64,000 nt of DNA from Acridotheres tristis (GCA_037013685.1 CM072906.1:8616001-8680000); one strand, 5' to 3'. Counted from the first letter of the stretch, positions 45,401 through 52,289 are shown. Translations and numbers: made by a program. The notes: generated by a model from the sequence alone, not told the origin.

Positions 45401-46736
45401 TTAAAAGAATAATCTTTGATAAGTTTATAGTACAATCAGAATGTTTTCATTTTAATTTCTTTTTCCATTGAACATTATGAAGATAATTTAAAATGTATTT
45501 GAAACACATCAAGGTTAGCATTAGTGCAAGTTGAGCCCTGGTTCAAGCTGCATCTGTTGTTTAGACATTGCTGTGAGACACCTTCCATGTGCTCTCCTCT
45601 AGTTCCAGCTTCACAAGTAAAATCCATCCCTAAATTTTAGGAAAGGTGCTGATTTCATTTCAATCAAGAAAGAGCACAGTAATAAAAGATTACAAATTTC
45701 AAATCCAGCCATACTCTACCTTTTTGTGCCTTTTAATCTATTTACTTAAGACAATTCATGTGCAAAGATGGTTATAACATCTGGGCTTTTGTTTGTCGTA
45801 TTGTTTTGAATGAATGTTGTAAAATCACTGTAAACCTTCTAAAACAGTGGTAATTCTCATGTGATAAACATGCTGTAAATCAGATACAATTCATTTTTTT
45901 TTTTTCAATTTGTCACAGGTGACCAGCAAGTTGATGCAGAGGGCCATTCTCACCATGTAAAACAGAGAAGGAAACATAAAGGCTGCACCCCTAAAATGCC
46001 AGAAATGAAAACAGAGACAGAAAAAATGAATGGTTGGACCAATGCTGATGTTGTGGAAGAGAATTGCTGCTCTGAACCACTGACTTCAACCCCTGTAGCC
46101 AAGAACTGCAGGGCCACAGGCAGCAGCCAGGAGCAAGGGAATGGGCCTGGTGACCTCATTGATCATTTAAATCAATGCCAATCATCATTAATTGCAGAAC
46201 AGAAACCAAATGGACCAGAATCAGGTTTGGAAACAACTCATTCTTCAGTTAAAAATGCTGAGGCTGCAATTGCTGAAGGACATCCTGGTAAGGAAACTCC
46301 AGCAGCAGGGAGAGCTGAGCCCTCACCATTACATGAGGATGAGGATGAGGATGAAAGCATTTACTTCACCCCAGAACTCTATGATGATGAAGAGCCAGAG
46401 GAGCAGAGGACTGAACCCCCACTTCCAGCCTGTTGTAGCACTGGGAATTGGGTGGAATGTGGGAACTGCACAGTCCCTGCTGATCTTTTTGGCACCAACA
46501 CCTCAGAAACACAGAGAGTGGCTGAAAAAGCTGGGGCTGGCAGAAATCCCCCTGGAATTCTGGAAAATGCAAGGAGCAGGGACAGTGCAGGTGGTGCTGT
46601 GGAGGTGGCAGCTGCAGCAGGAGCAGAGCAGGGAGAATCTCAGGACATGGAGACCCCAAAAAGGAAAGTCAGCCTTTCCAGATCCCGAAATAAAGGTGTG
46701 TCATCCTTCCTGCTGGGCAGCAGTGGCACCTGGTGA
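387..46736 (+). CDS. BRIP1: BRIP1/FANCJ DNA helicase, 19 coding exons, 1235 residues
   Basis: An Fe-S, DEAH-box 5'-3' DNA helicase of superfamily 2 (XPD/RTEL1/DDX11 family). It acts in the nucleus in crosslink repair, replication restart and unwinding of G-quadruplexes. The spliced product of exons 2-20 is colinear with human FANCJ (1249 residues) over its whole length. Visible landmarks are Walker A GSGKS with K52; lysines of the MLH1-binding SAKK motif in exon 5; Fe-S cysteines C294, C309, C321 and C358; DEAH at 401-404; TSGTLSP at 621-627; [10 protein letters not shown] in exon 16; and QALGRCIRH at 835-843. Each exon junction keeps the same phase as the human gene, and exon lengths differ only by multiples of three. 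The start is the first ATG in the exon and aligns with the human start. The C-terminal third is poorly conserved except for a [12 protein letters not shown] segment at about 1108-1119. The span given includes introns. A longer alternative C-terminus is described under the candidate exons. Confidence 0.98.
480..1055 (+). other. BRIP1 intron 2
   Basis: GT-AG intron of 576 bases. It contains a CR1 fragment near its 3' end and is otherwise unremarkable. Confidence 0.85.
917..985 (+). mobile_element. CR1 LINE fragment
   Basis: The words AACAGAACAAGAGGGCACAG and GTTTAGTCTGGACATTAGGA, in this order and spacing, are the familiar 3' portion of avian CR1 elements. It is a degraded, 5'-truncated copy ending about 70 bases before exon 3. 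Confidence 0.75.
1056..1167 (+). CDS. BRIP1: BRIP1 exon 3 (Walker A)
   Basis: Encodes residues 32-68 plus one base of codon 69. It contains motif [18 protein letters not shown], with K52 as the ATP-phosphate-binding lysine. The acceptor is TTAAAG and the donor GTGAGT at 1168. The 112 bases equal the human exon. Confidence 0.97.
1168..1566 (+). other. BRIP1 intron 3
   Basis: GT-AG intron of 399 bases with no recognisable repeat or element. Confidence 0.8.
1567..1761 (+). CDS. BRIP1: BRIP1 exon 4 (Cys/His-rich insert)
   Basis: Encodes residues 69-133, the poorly conserved insert between motif I and motif Ia. It is 21 bases (7 codons) longer than the human exon. It retains a compact Cys/His cluster, RCHCKCHS (C90, H91, C92, C94, H95), equivalent to CCCACHS in human. 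Acceptor CCCCAG, donor GTAACT at 1762. Intron 4 (1762-1986) is 225 bases and featureless. Confidence 0.94.
1987..2114 (+). CDS. BRIP1: BRIP1 exon 5 (MLH1-binding lysines)
   Basis: Encodes [11 protein letters not shown] and then [19 protein letters not shown]. In human FANCJ the equivalent SAKK lysines (K141/K142) bind MLH1; both are conserved here. The basic KRIRPLE stretch matches the proposed nuclear localisation region. Acceptor ATTACAG, donor GTGAGC at 2115. The end is in phase 0. Confidence 0.96.
2115..2609 (+). other. BRIP1 intron 5
   Basis: GT-AG intron of 495 bases with no recognisable element. Confidence 0.8.
2610..2744 (+). CDS. BRIP1: BRIP1 exon 6
   Basis: Encodes 45 residues starting [10 protein letters not shown] and ending SPQT, part of the variable insert between helicase motifs. 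The RKRHCF start and FSPQ end match human exon 6, but the middle is diverged and 5 codons longer. Acceptor CTAGCAG, donor GTGAGT at 2745. Confidence 0.94.
2745..7647 (+). other. BRIP1 intron 6 (4.9 kb)
   Basis: No exon-like open frame with splice sites and no clear repeat family is seen. A small hairpin (10-bp arms 6137-6146 and 6153-6162) is the only structure noted. The short open frames here have no family resemblance. Confidence 0.75.
7648..7935 (+). CDS. BRIP1: BRIP1 exon 7 (motif Ia, Fe-S Cys 1 and 2)
   Basis: Encodes residues 222-317. A second Cys cluster, CTECSC (C226, C229, C231), opens the exon. [16 protein letters not shown] is motif Ia. [10 protein letters not shown] and NEMCVELL supply the first two 4Fe-4S ligands, C294 and C309. 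Acceptor TTTGCAG, donor GTGAGT at 7936. It is one codon shorter than in human. Confidence 0.97.
7936..8389 (+). other. BRIP1 intron 7
   Basis: GT-AG intron of 454 bases, AT-rich, without recognisable elements. Confidence 0.8.
8390..8602 (+). CDS. BRIP1: BRIP1 exon 8 (Fe-S Cys 3 and 4)
   Basis: Encodes residues 318-388: [12 protein letters not shown] with C321 and [12 protein letters not shown] with C358, the remaining Fe-S ligands. The alanine before C358 is the position of the human A349P Fanconi mutation and is intact. [16 protein letters not shown] is the segment after the Fe-S domain. It is three codons shorter than in human. Donor GTGAGT at 8603. Confidence 0.97.
8821..8887. repeat. Two short palindromes before the exon 9 acceptor
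   Basis: 8821-8836 is a perfect 16-base palindrome (TAACAGGATCCTGTTA). 8871-8887 is an 8-bp inverted repeat around one base. The second ends five bases before the acceptor AG (8892-8893), in the pyrimidine-tract position of the 291-base intron 8. Confidence 0.7.
8894..9093 (+). CDS. BRIP1: BRIP1 exon 9 (DEAH box)
   Basis: Encodes residues 389-454 plus two bases of codon 455. [17 protein letters not shown] carries motif II (D401 E402 A403 H404), which coordinates Mg-[15 protein letters not shown] follows. The 200 bases equal the human exon. Acceptor TTTTAG, donor GTAAGG at 9094. Confidence 0.97.
9094..11883 (+). other. BRIP1 intron 9 (2.8 kb)
   Basis: No repeat family, exon or regulatory block is recognised. 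Open frames here are short and without family resemblance. Confidence 0.75.
11884..12016 (+). CDS. BRIP1: BRIP1 exon 10
   Basis: Completes codon 455 and runs to residue 499; [20 protein letters not shown] and [13 protein letters not shown] align with human. This belongs to the arch domain inserted in helicase domain 1. The 133 bases equal the human exon. Acceptor CTCTCAG, donor GTAATG at 12017. Confidence 0.96.
12017..12550 (+). other. BRIP1 intron 10
   Basis: GT-AG intron of 534 bases; nothing else recognised. Confidence 0.8.
12551..12702 (+). CDS. BRIP1: BRIP1 exon 11
   Basis: Encodes [13 protein letters not shown] and [20 protein letters not shown], ending in the split Arg codon 550. It is one codon shorter than in human. 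Acceptor TTGCAG, donor GTCAGG at 12703. The following intron is only 83 bases (12703-12785). Confidence 0.96.
12786..12957 (+). CDS. BRIP1: BRIP1 exon 12
   Basis: Encodes [15 protein letters not shown] and, after a variable loop, [20 protein letters not shown]. The loop is two codons longer than in human and contains TSPFF (S577-F580), a pSPxF-like sequence. Acceptor GTCTAG, donor GTGAGC at 12958. The next intron is 114 bases. Confidence 0.96.
13072..13209 (+). CDS. BRIP1: BRIP1 exon 13 (motif III)
   Basis: Encodes residues 608-653. [20 protein letters not shown] is motif III and its surroundings, nearly identical to human. It is one codon shorter (E for GK near the start). Acceptor ACCTAG, donor GTAAAC at 13210. 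Confidence 0.97.
13210..13553 (+). other. BRIP1 intron 13
   Basis: GT-AG intron of 344 bases, AT-rich; nothing recognised. Confidence 0.8.
13554..13715 (+). CDS. BRIP1: BRIP1 exon 14 (motif IV region)
   Basis: Encodes residues 654-707: [20 protein letters not shown] through [11 protein letters not shown]. It is GC-rich compared with its neighbours. The 162 bases equal the human exon. Acceptor CTCCAG, donor GTAAGG at 13716. Confidence 0.97.
13753..14300 (-). mobile_element. Possible minus-strand LTR-like element with internal minisatellite
   Basis: Read on the minus strand, a TATA-like box (CTATAAAAAC, near 14045) is followed about 220 bases later by AATAAA (13819-13824). This is the order of promoter and poly(A) signal in an LTR. 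The 30-bp minisatellite lies between them. Ends, primer-binding site and target duplication are not defined, so the boundaries are approximate and the call is tentative. Confidence 0.3.
13841..13976. repeat. 30-bp minisatellite, about 4.5 copies
   Basis: Four full 30-base units start at 13841, 13871, 13901 and 13931, with a partial fifth to about 13976. Units begin CCCTGGCAGTGGC and end CACGGTGGTGGC and differ at two bases or fewer. Because 30 is divisible by 3, all frames stay open, which explains the overlapping spurious reading frames here. Confidence 0.95.
16967..16982. repeat. Poly(T) run
   Basis: Uninterrupted T run of about 16 bases in intron 14; no attached retroposon is recognised. 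Confidence 0.85.
17188..17248 (+). mobile_element. CR1 LINE 3' end
   Basis: GGGAGGTTGGACTGGATCCC, then AAAGGTTCCTTGCAACCCAA and CTATTCCATGAT, is the diagnostic CR1 3' terminus. It is a short 5'-truncated copy of the usual avian kind. Confidence 0.9.
20030..20047. repeat. Poly(A) run
   Basis: About 18 A residues, interrupted only by the line break, in intron 14. No retrogene is recognised 5' of it. Confidence 0.8.
21370..21730. promoter_or_regulatory. Candidate conserved non-coding element in intron 14
   Basis: About seven CpGs fall in the first 100 bases (21378-21475), against an otherwise CpG-depleted intron. Homeobox-type words follow (GTTAATTTAAATAG, TGTAATTAACAC). An imperfect inverted repeat GGCAGATTATT/AATTATCTGCC lies at about 21430-21466. 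Base composition unlike its surroundings suggests constraint. This is inference from composition only. Confidence 0.45.
22564..22609. repeat. (TTTA)n microsatellite
   Basis: About eleven tandem TTTA units without interruption. Confidence 0.95.
23260..23345. promoter_or_regulatory. Small CpG-retaining block, possible conserved element
   Basis: GTTGTCGCCGGTCACGTTTTCC contains three or four CpGs within 25 bases in a CpG-poor intron and is followed by TTATTTAAGGGCC. This is weak composition evidence only. Confidence 0.2.
24913..24942. repeat. T20G10 homopolymer junction
   Basis: A run of about 20 T directly followed by about 10 G. Both runs are prone to slippage and to sequencing error. Confidence 0.9.
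25242..25300. repeat. 23-bp direct duplication
   Basis: TTGGGATAATGGACATTAGG plus GTT occurs at 25242-25264 and again at 25278-25300, separated by 13 AT-rich bases. Each copy ends ATTAGGGTT, one telomere-like unit. Confidence 0.85.
26474..26513. repeat. 20-bp tandem duplication
   Basis: CTGCTTGGTGCCAGGGGCTC occurs twice with two or fewer intervening bases, directly 5' of the large minisatellite. Confidence 0.8.
26531..26880. repeat. 27-bp polypyrimidine minisatellite, about 12-13 copies
   Basis: Units of TCCCTTTTTCCCTTCCCAG plus TCTGTCTG start at 26531, 26558, 26585, 26612, 26639, 26666, 26693, 26720, 26747, 26774 and 26801, then degrade to about 26880. The + strand is nearly all pyrimidine. 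The minus strand has GGGAAGGGAAAAAGGG in every unit, so it could form G-quadruplexes or triplex DNA. Length 27 is a multiple of 3, which creates long spurious open frames on both strands. Confidence 0.97.
29189..29218. repeat. (GGA)n purine microsatellite
   Basis: Interrupted AGG/GGA triplets, about ten units. It explains a proline/leucine-rich spurious frame on the minus strand. Confidence 0.85.
30181..30203. repeat. (TTTAA)n microsatellite
   Basis: About four tandem 5-base units, TTTAATTTAATTTAATTTAA. Confidence 0.85.
30994..31153 (+). CDS. BRIP1: BRIP1 exon 15
   Basis: Encodes [25 protein letters not shown] and [18 protein letters not shown] in helicase domain 2, ending with one base of codon 761. 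The 160 bases equal the human exon. Acceptor TTTTCAG, donor GTACAT at 31154. Confidence 0.97.
31154..31453 (+). other. BRIP1 intron 15
   Basis: GT-AG intron of 300 bases, AT-rich; nothing recognised. Confidence 0.8.
31454..31575 (+). CDS. BRIP1: BRIP1 exon 16 (motif V)
   Basis: Encodes [19 protein letters not shown] (motif V) and [13 protein letters not shown]. The 122 bases equal the human exon. Acceptor GTTGCAG, donor GTAGGA at 31576. Confidence 0.97.
34180..34480. promoter_or_regulatory. Possible conserved non-coding block in intron 16
   Basis: Dense homeobox/GATA/POU-like words (GTTAATTAAC, AGATAT, TGTAATATTAG, TAATAT) and no repeat signature. Composition only. Confidence 0.25.
36393..36410. 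repeat. Poly(A) run
   Basis: About 17 A residues in intron 16. Confidence 0.85.
37230..37560. promoter_or_regulatory. Possible conserved non-coding block in intron 16
   Basis: A long AT-rich, repeat-free stretch with many TAAT cores, TGATAATTGAGC, GTAATCGACAG, ATGCAATATTTATATG and a CTAATAAG run. It resembles deeply conserved intronic enhancers. Composition only. Confidence 0.3.
39042..39063. repeat. Poly(A) run
   Basis: About 22 A residues in intron 16. Confidence 0.85.
41418..41530 (+). CDS. BRIP1: BRIP1 exon 17 (start of motif VI)
   Basis: Encodes [30 protein letters not shown] plus two bases of R839. Motif VI (QALGRCIRH) is split across exons 17 and 18 as in human. The 113 bases equal the human exon. 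Acceptor TTCTTAG, donor GTGAGA at 41531. Confidence 0.97.
41531..42924 (+). other. BRIP1 intron 17
   Basis: GT-AG intron of 1.4 kb. No repeat family or other element recognised. Confidence 0.8.
42925..43007 (+). CDS. BRIP1: BRIP1 exon 18 (motif VI)
   Basis: Encodes [18 protein letters not shown] and NNPNKYIT, ending with one base of a Gly codon. It carries the conserved arginine R842 of motif VI. The 83 bases equal the human exon. Acceptor TTTTAG, donor GTAAGG at 43008. Confidence 0.97.
44204..44264. repeat. 22-bp tandem repeat, about 2.7 copies
   Basis: Units starting TGTTATTCTGGAATAAGG at 44204 and 44226, and a third at 44248 that breaks off after TGTTATTCTGGAAT. It abuts the LTR-like element and may be part of its leader region. 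Confidence 0.9.
44265..44880 (-). mobile_element. Minus-strand endogenous retrovirus LTR (solo or truncated)
   Basis: On the minus strand the order is that of an LTR: CTATAAAAG (44536-44544), about 140 bases, AATAAA (44397-44402), about 100 bases of U5-like sequence, then a CA end at 44297-44298. Directly after this lies TTTGGTGCCCCGTGTG (44281-44296), which looks like a tRNA primer-binding site, followed by a short leader. No gag, pol or env frame is visible. The U3 end (plus-strand right edge) is estimated. It lies antisense within BRIP1. Confidence 0.6.
44953..45243 (+). CDS. BRIP1: BRIP1 exon 19
   Basis: Completes the Gly codon and encodes [21 protein letters not shown], the last conserved block of the helicase core, then a diverged region ([19 protein letters not shown] and on). 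It is 39 bases shorter than in human and in the same phase. Acceptor CCCCCCCAG after a C-run, donor GTATGT at 45244. It is GC-rich with several CpGs at its 5' half. Confidence 0.94.
45244..45918 (+). other. BRIP1 intron 19
   Basis: GT-AG intron of 675 bases with a T-run (45894-45904) near the acceptor. Nothing else recognised. Confidence 0.8.
45919..46736 (+). CDS. BRIP1: BRIP1 exon 20 (last exon of the short form)
   Basis: Encodes residues 964-1235 and TGA at 46734-46736. Conservation with human is limited to KTETEKM, the [12 protein letters not shown] segment (residues about 1108-1119, followed by an acidic DDEEPEE) and the tail SRSRNKG, matching SPSKNKG at the human C-terminus. The human BRCA1-binding SPTF motif falls in a section of about 30 residues missing here. 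The threonine of YFTPE, which in human binds TopBP1 when phosphorylated, is kept as T1114. After SRSRNK the reading frame runs 13 further residues to the stop. That point coincides with a possible 5' splice site at 46696. Confidence 0.93.
46690..46702 (+). promoter_or_regulatory. BRIP1: Possible 5' splice site inside exon 20
   Basis: AATAAAG|GTGTGT at 46696, in phase 1, exactly after the conserved SRSRNK tail. The human protein tail also diverges from this point (NKG then an unrelated short end). Its phase matches the first candidate downstream exon. Use of this donor would remove the normal stop. Confidence 0.5.

Positions 46737-52289: not shown

Follow-up and report, generated by a model that had tools for sequence, protein, structure and literature searches.

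The window, the whole stretch of 64,000 nucleotides analysed here, carries the gene for the DNA-repair helicase BRIP1/FANCJ, with an ATG at position 387. The 18 introns upstream of the tail all have GT/AG borders, and their phases are the same as those in the human gene. Pfam searches placed DEAD_2 (PF06733) at residues 259-423 (E = 9.8e-52) and Helicase_C_2 (PF13307) at residues 689-874 (E = 1.8e-49), the domain pair of XPD-like Fe-S helicases, a family whose helicase core bears an Fe-S cluster. The closest relative is the annotated FANCJ "isoform 2-T3" of the common myna, which is orthologous over the full length and identical to the re-spliced window at 1427 of 1440 residues. The window contains the whole coding region of a songbird BRIP1/FANCJ gene, similar to that of the common myna. 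The TopBP1-binding motif FTPELYD and the ...NKG at the end of exon 20 are further features shared with the human protein. By contrast, the BRCA1 BRCT-binding pSPxF motif (human S990) has no counterpart, SPTF being absent from the window and from 22 of the 25 relatives; in this comparison only the 3 marsupials and the human protein have it, which makes it a feature of mammals and not one that defines the family. The features considered below, all on the + strand, are as follows.

387..46695, +, BRIP1/FANCJ coding exons 2-20, last residues ...SRSRNK, followed by the exon-20 donor at 46696
45919..46736, +, terminal version of exon 20 by read-through of its donor, short form of 1235 residues
48852..48925, +, exon 21, basic linker (LKVQRRCSRRKGALRQSGSSRERKK), placed by protein relatives
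49399..49477, +, exon 22, QPCRKGLYCVVCGAEILPK, first Cys pair (C1255, C1261, C1264), placed by protein relatives
50916..51131, +, exon 23, middle of the domain with conserved C1307, placed by protein relatives
51768..52054, +, exon 24 with corrected acceptor, CRSC (C1370, C1373) and LIGAEV, matching myna P0001
52065..52091, +, last exon of the initial annotation, RFEMIVKN, unsupported by relatives
52284..52289, +, AATAAA, putative poly(A) signal of the form ending in exon 24
54811..54849, +, candidate alternative last exon, IAQTVLSIIRQK then stop, as annotated in Ammospiza (IAPTVLSIIRQK)
54888..54947, +, candidate alternative last exon, IGPHYYANTVHRAAPEVAH then stop, as annotated in alligator (IGAHYYANRVHRAAPEVAH)

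Two possible ends of the BRIP1 gene

If the donor at 46696 is left unused, exon 20 would run on for 13 residues beyond ...SRSRNK to a stop ending at 46736, yielding a short form like the human protein, for which the nearest downstream AATAAA lies at 47554. Human BRIP1 (1249 residues, ending ...SKNKGMFPGFK) stops at the equivalent place, only a few codons beyond this splice point. If the donor is used, exons 21-24 would be joined on to give the long form. Whether splicing competes with poly(A) use for the choice of end is, in our estimate, evenly balanced.

The borders of exons 21, 22 and 23 proposed in the initial annotation agree with the protein relatives. Most of its fourth interval is likewise found in relatives, but their acceptor is the equivalent of 51768 (myna junction LPVE-DLNGSL) and not 51741. 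An exon-24 start at 51741 gained no support: its splice-site score is lower (2.4 versus 7.5 for 51768), and the ETTFSFSLK that it would add occurs in none of the 18 relatives with exon 24. Because the acceptor is 51768, CRSC falls at residues 1370-1373 instead of 1379-1382. The proposed last exon, 52065-52091, was dropped, since none of the 25 relatives carries RFEMIVKN; its acceptor nonetheless scores well (8.9).

Ends beyond exon 24 vary among relatives, with 11 of the 25 records, including that of the bilby, finishing in VWLLPS..., for which the window, followed to its end at 64000, showed no exon. Exon 24 running on to the stop at 52054, for a protein of 1440 residues, is most likely the end here; a donor after 51925 (score 5.0) fits the exon-24 junction of other relatives. 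The interval 54888..54947 may just as well be conserved noncoding DNA. With the small splice-site score, trained on the 18 upstream introns of BRIP1 itself, exon 21 has a weak acceptor (0.7) and a weak donor (3.5) and exon 22 a weak acceptor (0.7), all three scoring lower than any of the 18 corresponding training sites.

Conservation of the tail in vertebrates

Of 732 candidates, a search with the window tail matched 21, with chicken, alligator, tortoise, bilby and horn shark among them; 20 of these have E values between 7.9e-108 and 1.9e-17, and the 21st (Hirundo) has 1.3e-3. The bilby tail (16 of 316) added opossum and wallaby, and the shark tail (3 of 180) added chimaera and saw shark. The 25 relatives, which are database entries and presumably computational predictions, comprise birds, alligator, a tortoise, 3 marsupials and cartilaginous fishes, with no placental mammal among them. 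Exons 21-23 and most of exon 24 were each found in 18 to 22 of the 25. Exon 24 is missing from 7, and exons 21 and 22 (153 nt, in frame) are missing together from 3 (P0014, P0015 and P0018); the zebra finch and canary records, lacking these two exons, also lack the first Cys pair. Exon 23 (216 nt) is missing in frame from tortoise P0019, so that these losses preserve the reading frame. The entire tail was found in the bilby only among the 3 marsupials, and in horn shark and chimaera only among the 3 cartilaginous fishes.

The tail exons are mostly better conserved than exon 20. Identities for exons 22, 23 and 24 are 72%, 67% and 77% in chicken (exon 20, 51%), 81%, 52% and 62% in alligator (exon 20, 36%), and 54%, 15% and 49% in horn shark (exon 20, 19%). 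Exon 21 is 100% identical in myna P0001 and 51% in chicken P0011; the bilby retains 59% in exon 22 and 43% in exon 23, the latter falling to 15-22% in horn shark and chimaera. Over the tail, identity reaches 46% for the bilby and 31% for the horn shark, and the cysteines stay in frame. The same tail appears in long FANCJ isoforms of myna (isoform 2-T3), chicken (isoform X1), alligator (isoform B), bilby and horn shark.

Together, gene structure and conservation make it very probable that exons 21-24 are a coding tail. The proposal of a long C-terminal BRIP1 form older than birds was thus borne out. No description of it was found in the literature searched, consistent with its having been called undescribed, but long-tail records are already present in NCBI, UniRef and nr, presumably as automated predictions.

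Cysteines and fold of the tail

In an alignment of 17 rows, two of them without part of the domain, the tail has the signature QPCxxGLxCxxCG ... YLQCRxC ... L(I/V)GA(E/K), lying in exons 22 and 24 in frame after the end of exon 20. Exon 22 has invariant P2, C3, G6, L7, C9, C12 and G13 across the 17 rows. Six tail cysteines are invariant or nearly so, with spacing 6-3-43-65-3 in the chicken row: the two pairs singled out initially, C1261/C1264 and CRSC, and two more, C1255 and C1307. Exons 21-24 would encode a linker rich in arginine and lysine, followed by a domain of approximately 150 residues framed on either side by a conserved Cys pair; the two pairs together may hold one zinc ion. Zinc binding by the pairs is probable, judged from sequence, as CxxC...CxxC usually denotes structural zinc when it occurs in a nuclear repair protein. 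A disulphide, an iron-sulphur site or redox switches would fit the near-invariance of C1255 and C1307 besides the pairs, and the helicase core of this family does hold an Fe-S cluster, yet we regard such uses of the cysteines as unlikely.

The paralogous Fe-S helicase RTEL1 is similar in layout, its disordered tail ending in a metal-binding module. Its C4C4 RING, however, needs eight closely spaced metal ligands, whereas the BRIP1 tail has six near-invariant cysteines over about 120 residues; counting cysteines alone, eight ligands in RING spacing were not found. The initially suggested resemblance to beta-tent domains (Mis18/Yippee, cereblon CULT, the RIG-I C-terminal domain and UBE3D) extends to two distant CxxC pairs and a Gly-containing segment past the second pair, but Pfam, PDB-sequence and profile comparisons lent it no support. 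Beta-tent families were absent from the Pfam matches of the 17 rows at E<=10 and from 17 PDB profile matches, and hhalign against three members of the fold other than UBE3D and CULT gave probabilities of 0.22, 0.42 and 0.39 percent, negligible beside 0.16, 0.39 and 0.24 percent for reversed controls. The structure models (pLDDT 37.6 and 45.2), too poor to judge the fold, place two helices between the Cys pairs, at low confidence a difference from beta-tent domains, and a fold search with the 45.2 model only gave no reliable match.

Alternative readings and the role of the tail

The splice signals of the initial annotation are present, with an AG acceptor at each of the five intervals and a GT donor at the first four; the phases fit together as proposed, and the joined intervals can be read without interruption as far as the last stop. 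However, all 12 dinucleotide shuffles hold in-frame chains longer than the 193 residues claimed (271-464 residues, up to five exons), and the real sequence one of about 420 residues (up to five exons); an open in-phase chain is therefore no evidence alone. What speaks for the tail is its conservation, which by homology is far beyond chance. A chain put together by chance from open stretches of a 3' intergenic region, from which nothing is made, would fit the shuffles and the unsupported exon-24 border and last exon, but is refuted for exons 21-24 by relatives from birds to cartilaginous fishes with invariant cysteines; it stands for 52065-52091, and as a reading of the whole is extremely improbable. 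Scarcely more credible is one wrong model spread between genomes by homology-guided gene prediction: the models are presumably computational and their final exons differ between species, but a pipeline cannot create the bilby and horn shark identities with cysteines in frame, and the records are named after several conventions (isoform X1, isoform B, isoform 2-T3, DNA 5'-3' helicase).

A domain once functional, with the songbird long form a minor by-product of weak splicing and of little or no role, deserves more weight, although we consider it rather unlikely. The weak sites around exons 21-22 and the zebra finch and canary records fit it, as does the statement of a review (PMC4204437) that human FANCJ rescues chicken brip1 mutant cells from their sensitivity to crosslinks and G4 ligands, which counts against an essential role of the tail. 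Against it, the 13 window-myna differences comprise 10 in the 1222 residues of exons 2-20, 3 in the 42-residue run-on and none in exons 21-24, and identity of the tail exons is 82-96% in Ammospiza, Anomalospiza and Taeniopygia, versus 66-77% for exon 20.

With a conserved coding tail as the preferred reading, the module may serve to dock BRIP1 onto a partner protein or DNA and would then tune where or when the helicase works, not whether unwinding occurs. This role is put forward tentatively, and slightly more so because of the reported rescue. Overall, the initial observation was partly confirmed and its interpretation partly supported. Loss of the tail, proposed initially for mammals, is consistent with these data for placentals, as the relatives include 3 marsupials and no placental mammal. 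Judging from these matches, the domain was already in the jawed-vertebrate ancestor and persists in birds, crocodilians, turtles, marsupials and cartilaginous fishes, and placental mammals fairly likely retain only the short end. The BRIP1 gene of this bird can thus encode an evolutionarily old cysteine-rich tail absent from the well-studied human protein.

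BRIP1 and the exons beyond its conserved end

The coding region of BRIP1/FANCJ is complete on the forward strand of the window. Guided by the human protein (1249 residues), coding exons 2–20 were mapped to positions 387–46695; each of the 18 introns is bounded by GT/AG and shares its phase with the human gene. Pfam places DEAD_2 at residues 259–423 and Helicase_C_2 at residues 689–874, and both the window and 24 of 25 annotated FANCJ relatives match the pattern of the TopBP1-binding motif (FTPEL or FSPEL). The 17-kb intron 14 contains 2 minisatellites (13841–13971, 4.4 copies of a 30-bp unit; 26526–26883, 13 copies of a 27-bp unit) and a tRNA-Ala (TGC) predicted by ARAGORN on the minus strand (15365–15440). 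A direct repeat of 141 nt, 89% identical, lies 3′ of the gene (53084–53224 and 56172–56312). Across the whole window, there was no Rfam match at the gathering score. The features at the 3′ end of the gene are as follows.

46696, forward strand: donor of exon 20
46736, forward strand: stop of the frame running on past this donor, giving a short form of 1235 residues
47554, forward strand: AATAAA, downstream of the short-form stop
48852–48925, forward strand: exon 21
49399–49477, forward strand: exon 22, first Cys-pair exon
50916–51131, forward strand: exon 23
51768–52054, forward strand: exon 24, second Cys-pair exon, with its run-on and stop codon

The initial annotation had proposed 5 additional 3′ exons, and the AG/GT borders, phases and open joined frame of all 5 intervals are as it described. 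It had also relied on the unbroken chaining of the phases; longer in-frame chains of up to 5 exons were found in all 12 dinucleotide shuffles of the 5.6-kb region (271 to 464 residues, all exceeding the proposed 193, with approximately 420 residues in the real sequence), and an open phase chain alone is thus little evidence. Comparison with protein relatives confirmed exons 21, 22, and 23. By contrast, the 9 extra residues implied by the proposed exon-24 acceptor at 51741 occur in none of the 18 relatives carrying this exon. Exon 24 starts at 51768, the myna database record reading LPVE and then DLNGSL, and a small splice score trained on BRIP1's own introns in the window gives 7.5 for 51768 versus 2.4 for 51741. 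The proposed last exon, 52065–52091 (RFEMIVKN), is present in none of the 25 relatives, although its acceptor scores 8.9, above that of 51768, so that the score is no argument against it. Both this exon and acceptor 51741 were discarded on the evidence of the relatives. Run-on of exon 24 yields a protein of 1440 residues, 1427 of which are identical in the myna record; 10 of the 13 differences fall in exons 2–20, none in exons 21–24, and 3 in the 42-residue run-on.

Distribution and conservation of the tail

The last 200 residues were searched against 5.8 billion proteins (E ≤ 1). With the window tail as a query, 21 of 732 candidates matched, all named FANCJ or DNA 5′-3′ helicase; they come from birds (songbirds and others, with chicken at 67% identity), from alligator (56%), a tortoise, the marsupial bilby (46%), and horn shark (31%). 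The bilby tail (16 of 316 candidates) added opossum and wallaby, and the shark tail (3 of 180) added chimaera and saw shark, for a total of 25 relatives, with species taken from the source records and common names added by us. Record names containing, for example, X1, isoform B, or isoform 2-T3 denote annotated isoforms, presumably predicted. The long form, considered undescribed in the initial annotation, is therefore already in databases; in the literature searched, from which subscription journals were mostly absent, we found no description of a long or zinc-bearing FANCJ tail.

Exon 21 is present in 22 of the 25 relatives, exons 22 and 23 in 21 each, and exon 24 in 18. The whole tail was found in only 1 of the 3 marsupials (bilby) and in 2 of the 3 cartilaginous fishes (horn shark and chimaera). 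The records of all 3 cartilaginous fishes (P0020, P0024, and P0025) retain SRSRNKG, but several hundred extra residues, which look like exon-20 run-through at the donor or an inserted further exon, precede the Cys-rich tail. Identities per exon were calculated using 15 of the 25 relatives.

Identity to the window protein by exon (exons 2–18; 20; 21; 22; 23; 24)
Chicken: 82%; 51%; 51%; 72%; 67%; 77%
Alligator: 78%; 36%; 46%; 81%; 52%; 62%
Bilby: 68%; 23%; 31%; 59%; 43%; 58%
Horn shark: 66%; 19%; 20%; 54%; 15%; 49%

In these 4 species, nothing outside the helicase is better preserved than the 2 Cys-pair exons, and exon 21, a basic linker, is fast-changing. An alignment of 17 rows, numbered as in the chicken tail, shows P2, C3, G6, L7, C9, C12, and G13 unchanged throughout and C55, C120, and C123 almost invariant, the conserved cysteines corresponding to C1255, C1261, C1264, C1307, C1370, and C1373 of the window protein.

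Ends of the tail in the 25 relatives
VWLLPS...: 11
Run-on past the exon-24 donor: 2 (myna and one zebra finch record)
IAPTVLSIIRQK: 1 (Ammospiza)
IGAHYYANRVHRAAPEVAH: 1 (alligator)
GDF: 1 (tortoise)
Own distinct ends: 2 (cartilaginous fishes)
Exon 24 absent: 7

No convincing copy of the VWLLPS exon was found in 51926–64000 by tblastn with 2 versions or by the WLLP codon pattern, a five-residue match, SWVWL at 52925–52939, extending no further; this exon may lie beyond the window end or have been lost. Sequences nearly identical to the ends of the Ammospiza and alligator records occur at 54811–54849 (acceptor score 8.0) and 54888–54947 (10.0), respectively; they may be last exons used alternatively, or else belong to a conserved noncoding element. 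The surrounding approximately 200 bases (54750–54950) hold 2 short open ends matching annotated terminal exons, possibly a noncoding element mistaken for exons. In addition, 51516–51563 weakly matches (E 0.002) the end that follows exon 23 in Passer/zebra finch, and 48866–48955 matches at 87% the run-on of exon 21 in Hirundo.

Fold and possible role of the tail

The resemblance to beta-tent zinc folds (UBE3D, Mis18/Yippee, cereblon) put forward in the initial annotation found no support in the searches and models used here, although such a fold may still apply. Pfam, NCBIfam, and PDB-sequence searches of the tail returned no zinc family worth naming, the sole zinc match being a SprT ribbon (E 3.2) in 1 of 17 rows, and profile comparison with 3 beta-tent members gave negligible scores, barely above reversed controls. 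AlphaFold2 models of the tail were weak (pLDDT 37.6 with 17 rows and 45.2 with 14 rows), and fold searches with the tail model gave nothing usable; both models put 2 helices into the stretch separating the Cys pairs, an arrangement that would be ill-matched to an all-beta tent.

The 2 ends of BRIP1 would compete, with splicing at 46696 appending the tail to the helicase and run-on producing the short form, which ends at the same place as the human protein (...SKNKGMFPGFK). Exons 21–22 (together 153 nt) are missing from some database isoforms and exon 23 (216 nt) from others, the frame being kept in both cases, and splice signals next to exons 21 and 22 are weak as judged by the own-intron score, suggesting that the tail is probably regulated. 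Given that the domain is conserved, follows a basic linker and closes a long tail of otherwise low conservation, it probably contains a structural zinc site, and the tail might, rather doubtfully, dock partner proteins or DNA. That the tail has little or no role is considered the less likely view. One report does speak against an essential role: according to a review (PMC4204437), human FANCJ rescues the crosslinker and G4-ligand sensitivity of chicken brip1 mutant cells.

The tail and the human protein

None of the 25 tail relatives is a placental protein, although the bilby tail retrieved birds at approximately 50% identity, so that a placental tail, if present, would be expected among the matches. 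However, tail searches need shared words, with proteins clustered at 90%, and the shark-tail search returned not even birds; hence, the lack of placental, amphibian, squamate, and teleost relatives in the 3 protein searches does not establish absence from these groups. The BRCA1-binding SPTF motif (human S990) displays the reverse of the tail pattern, being present in all 3 marsupials and the human protein, and absent from the window (exon 20, 45919–46695) and the other 22 relatives. Tentatively, and at somewhat less than even chances, human FANCJ could be a lineage-specific truncation. The jawed-vertebrate ancestor would have had a second, C-terminal Cys-rich docking domain, lost in placentals by read-through of the exon-20 donor, such that the last human residues, including acetylated K1249, would be former intron. 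The loss would roughly follow the origin of SPTF in therians, one recruitment route replacing another.

FANCJ is of major importance in cancer and Fanconi anaemia, and DT40 cells from chicken serve as a standard model for it. PMC3390368 relates a functional difference between human and chicken FANCJ to K1249, the final residue in human, and reports that K1249 lacks conservation in chicken. It also notes that chicken FANCJ is without function in homologous recombination, and a figure therein aligns the last 6 FANCJ residues across species. If non-placental vertebrates have an extra conserved domain just beyond the K1249 point, human-chicken comparisons may overlook part of the protein. Human FANCJ is the basis of functional work, and the exact junctions in the window make the question of the tail testable.
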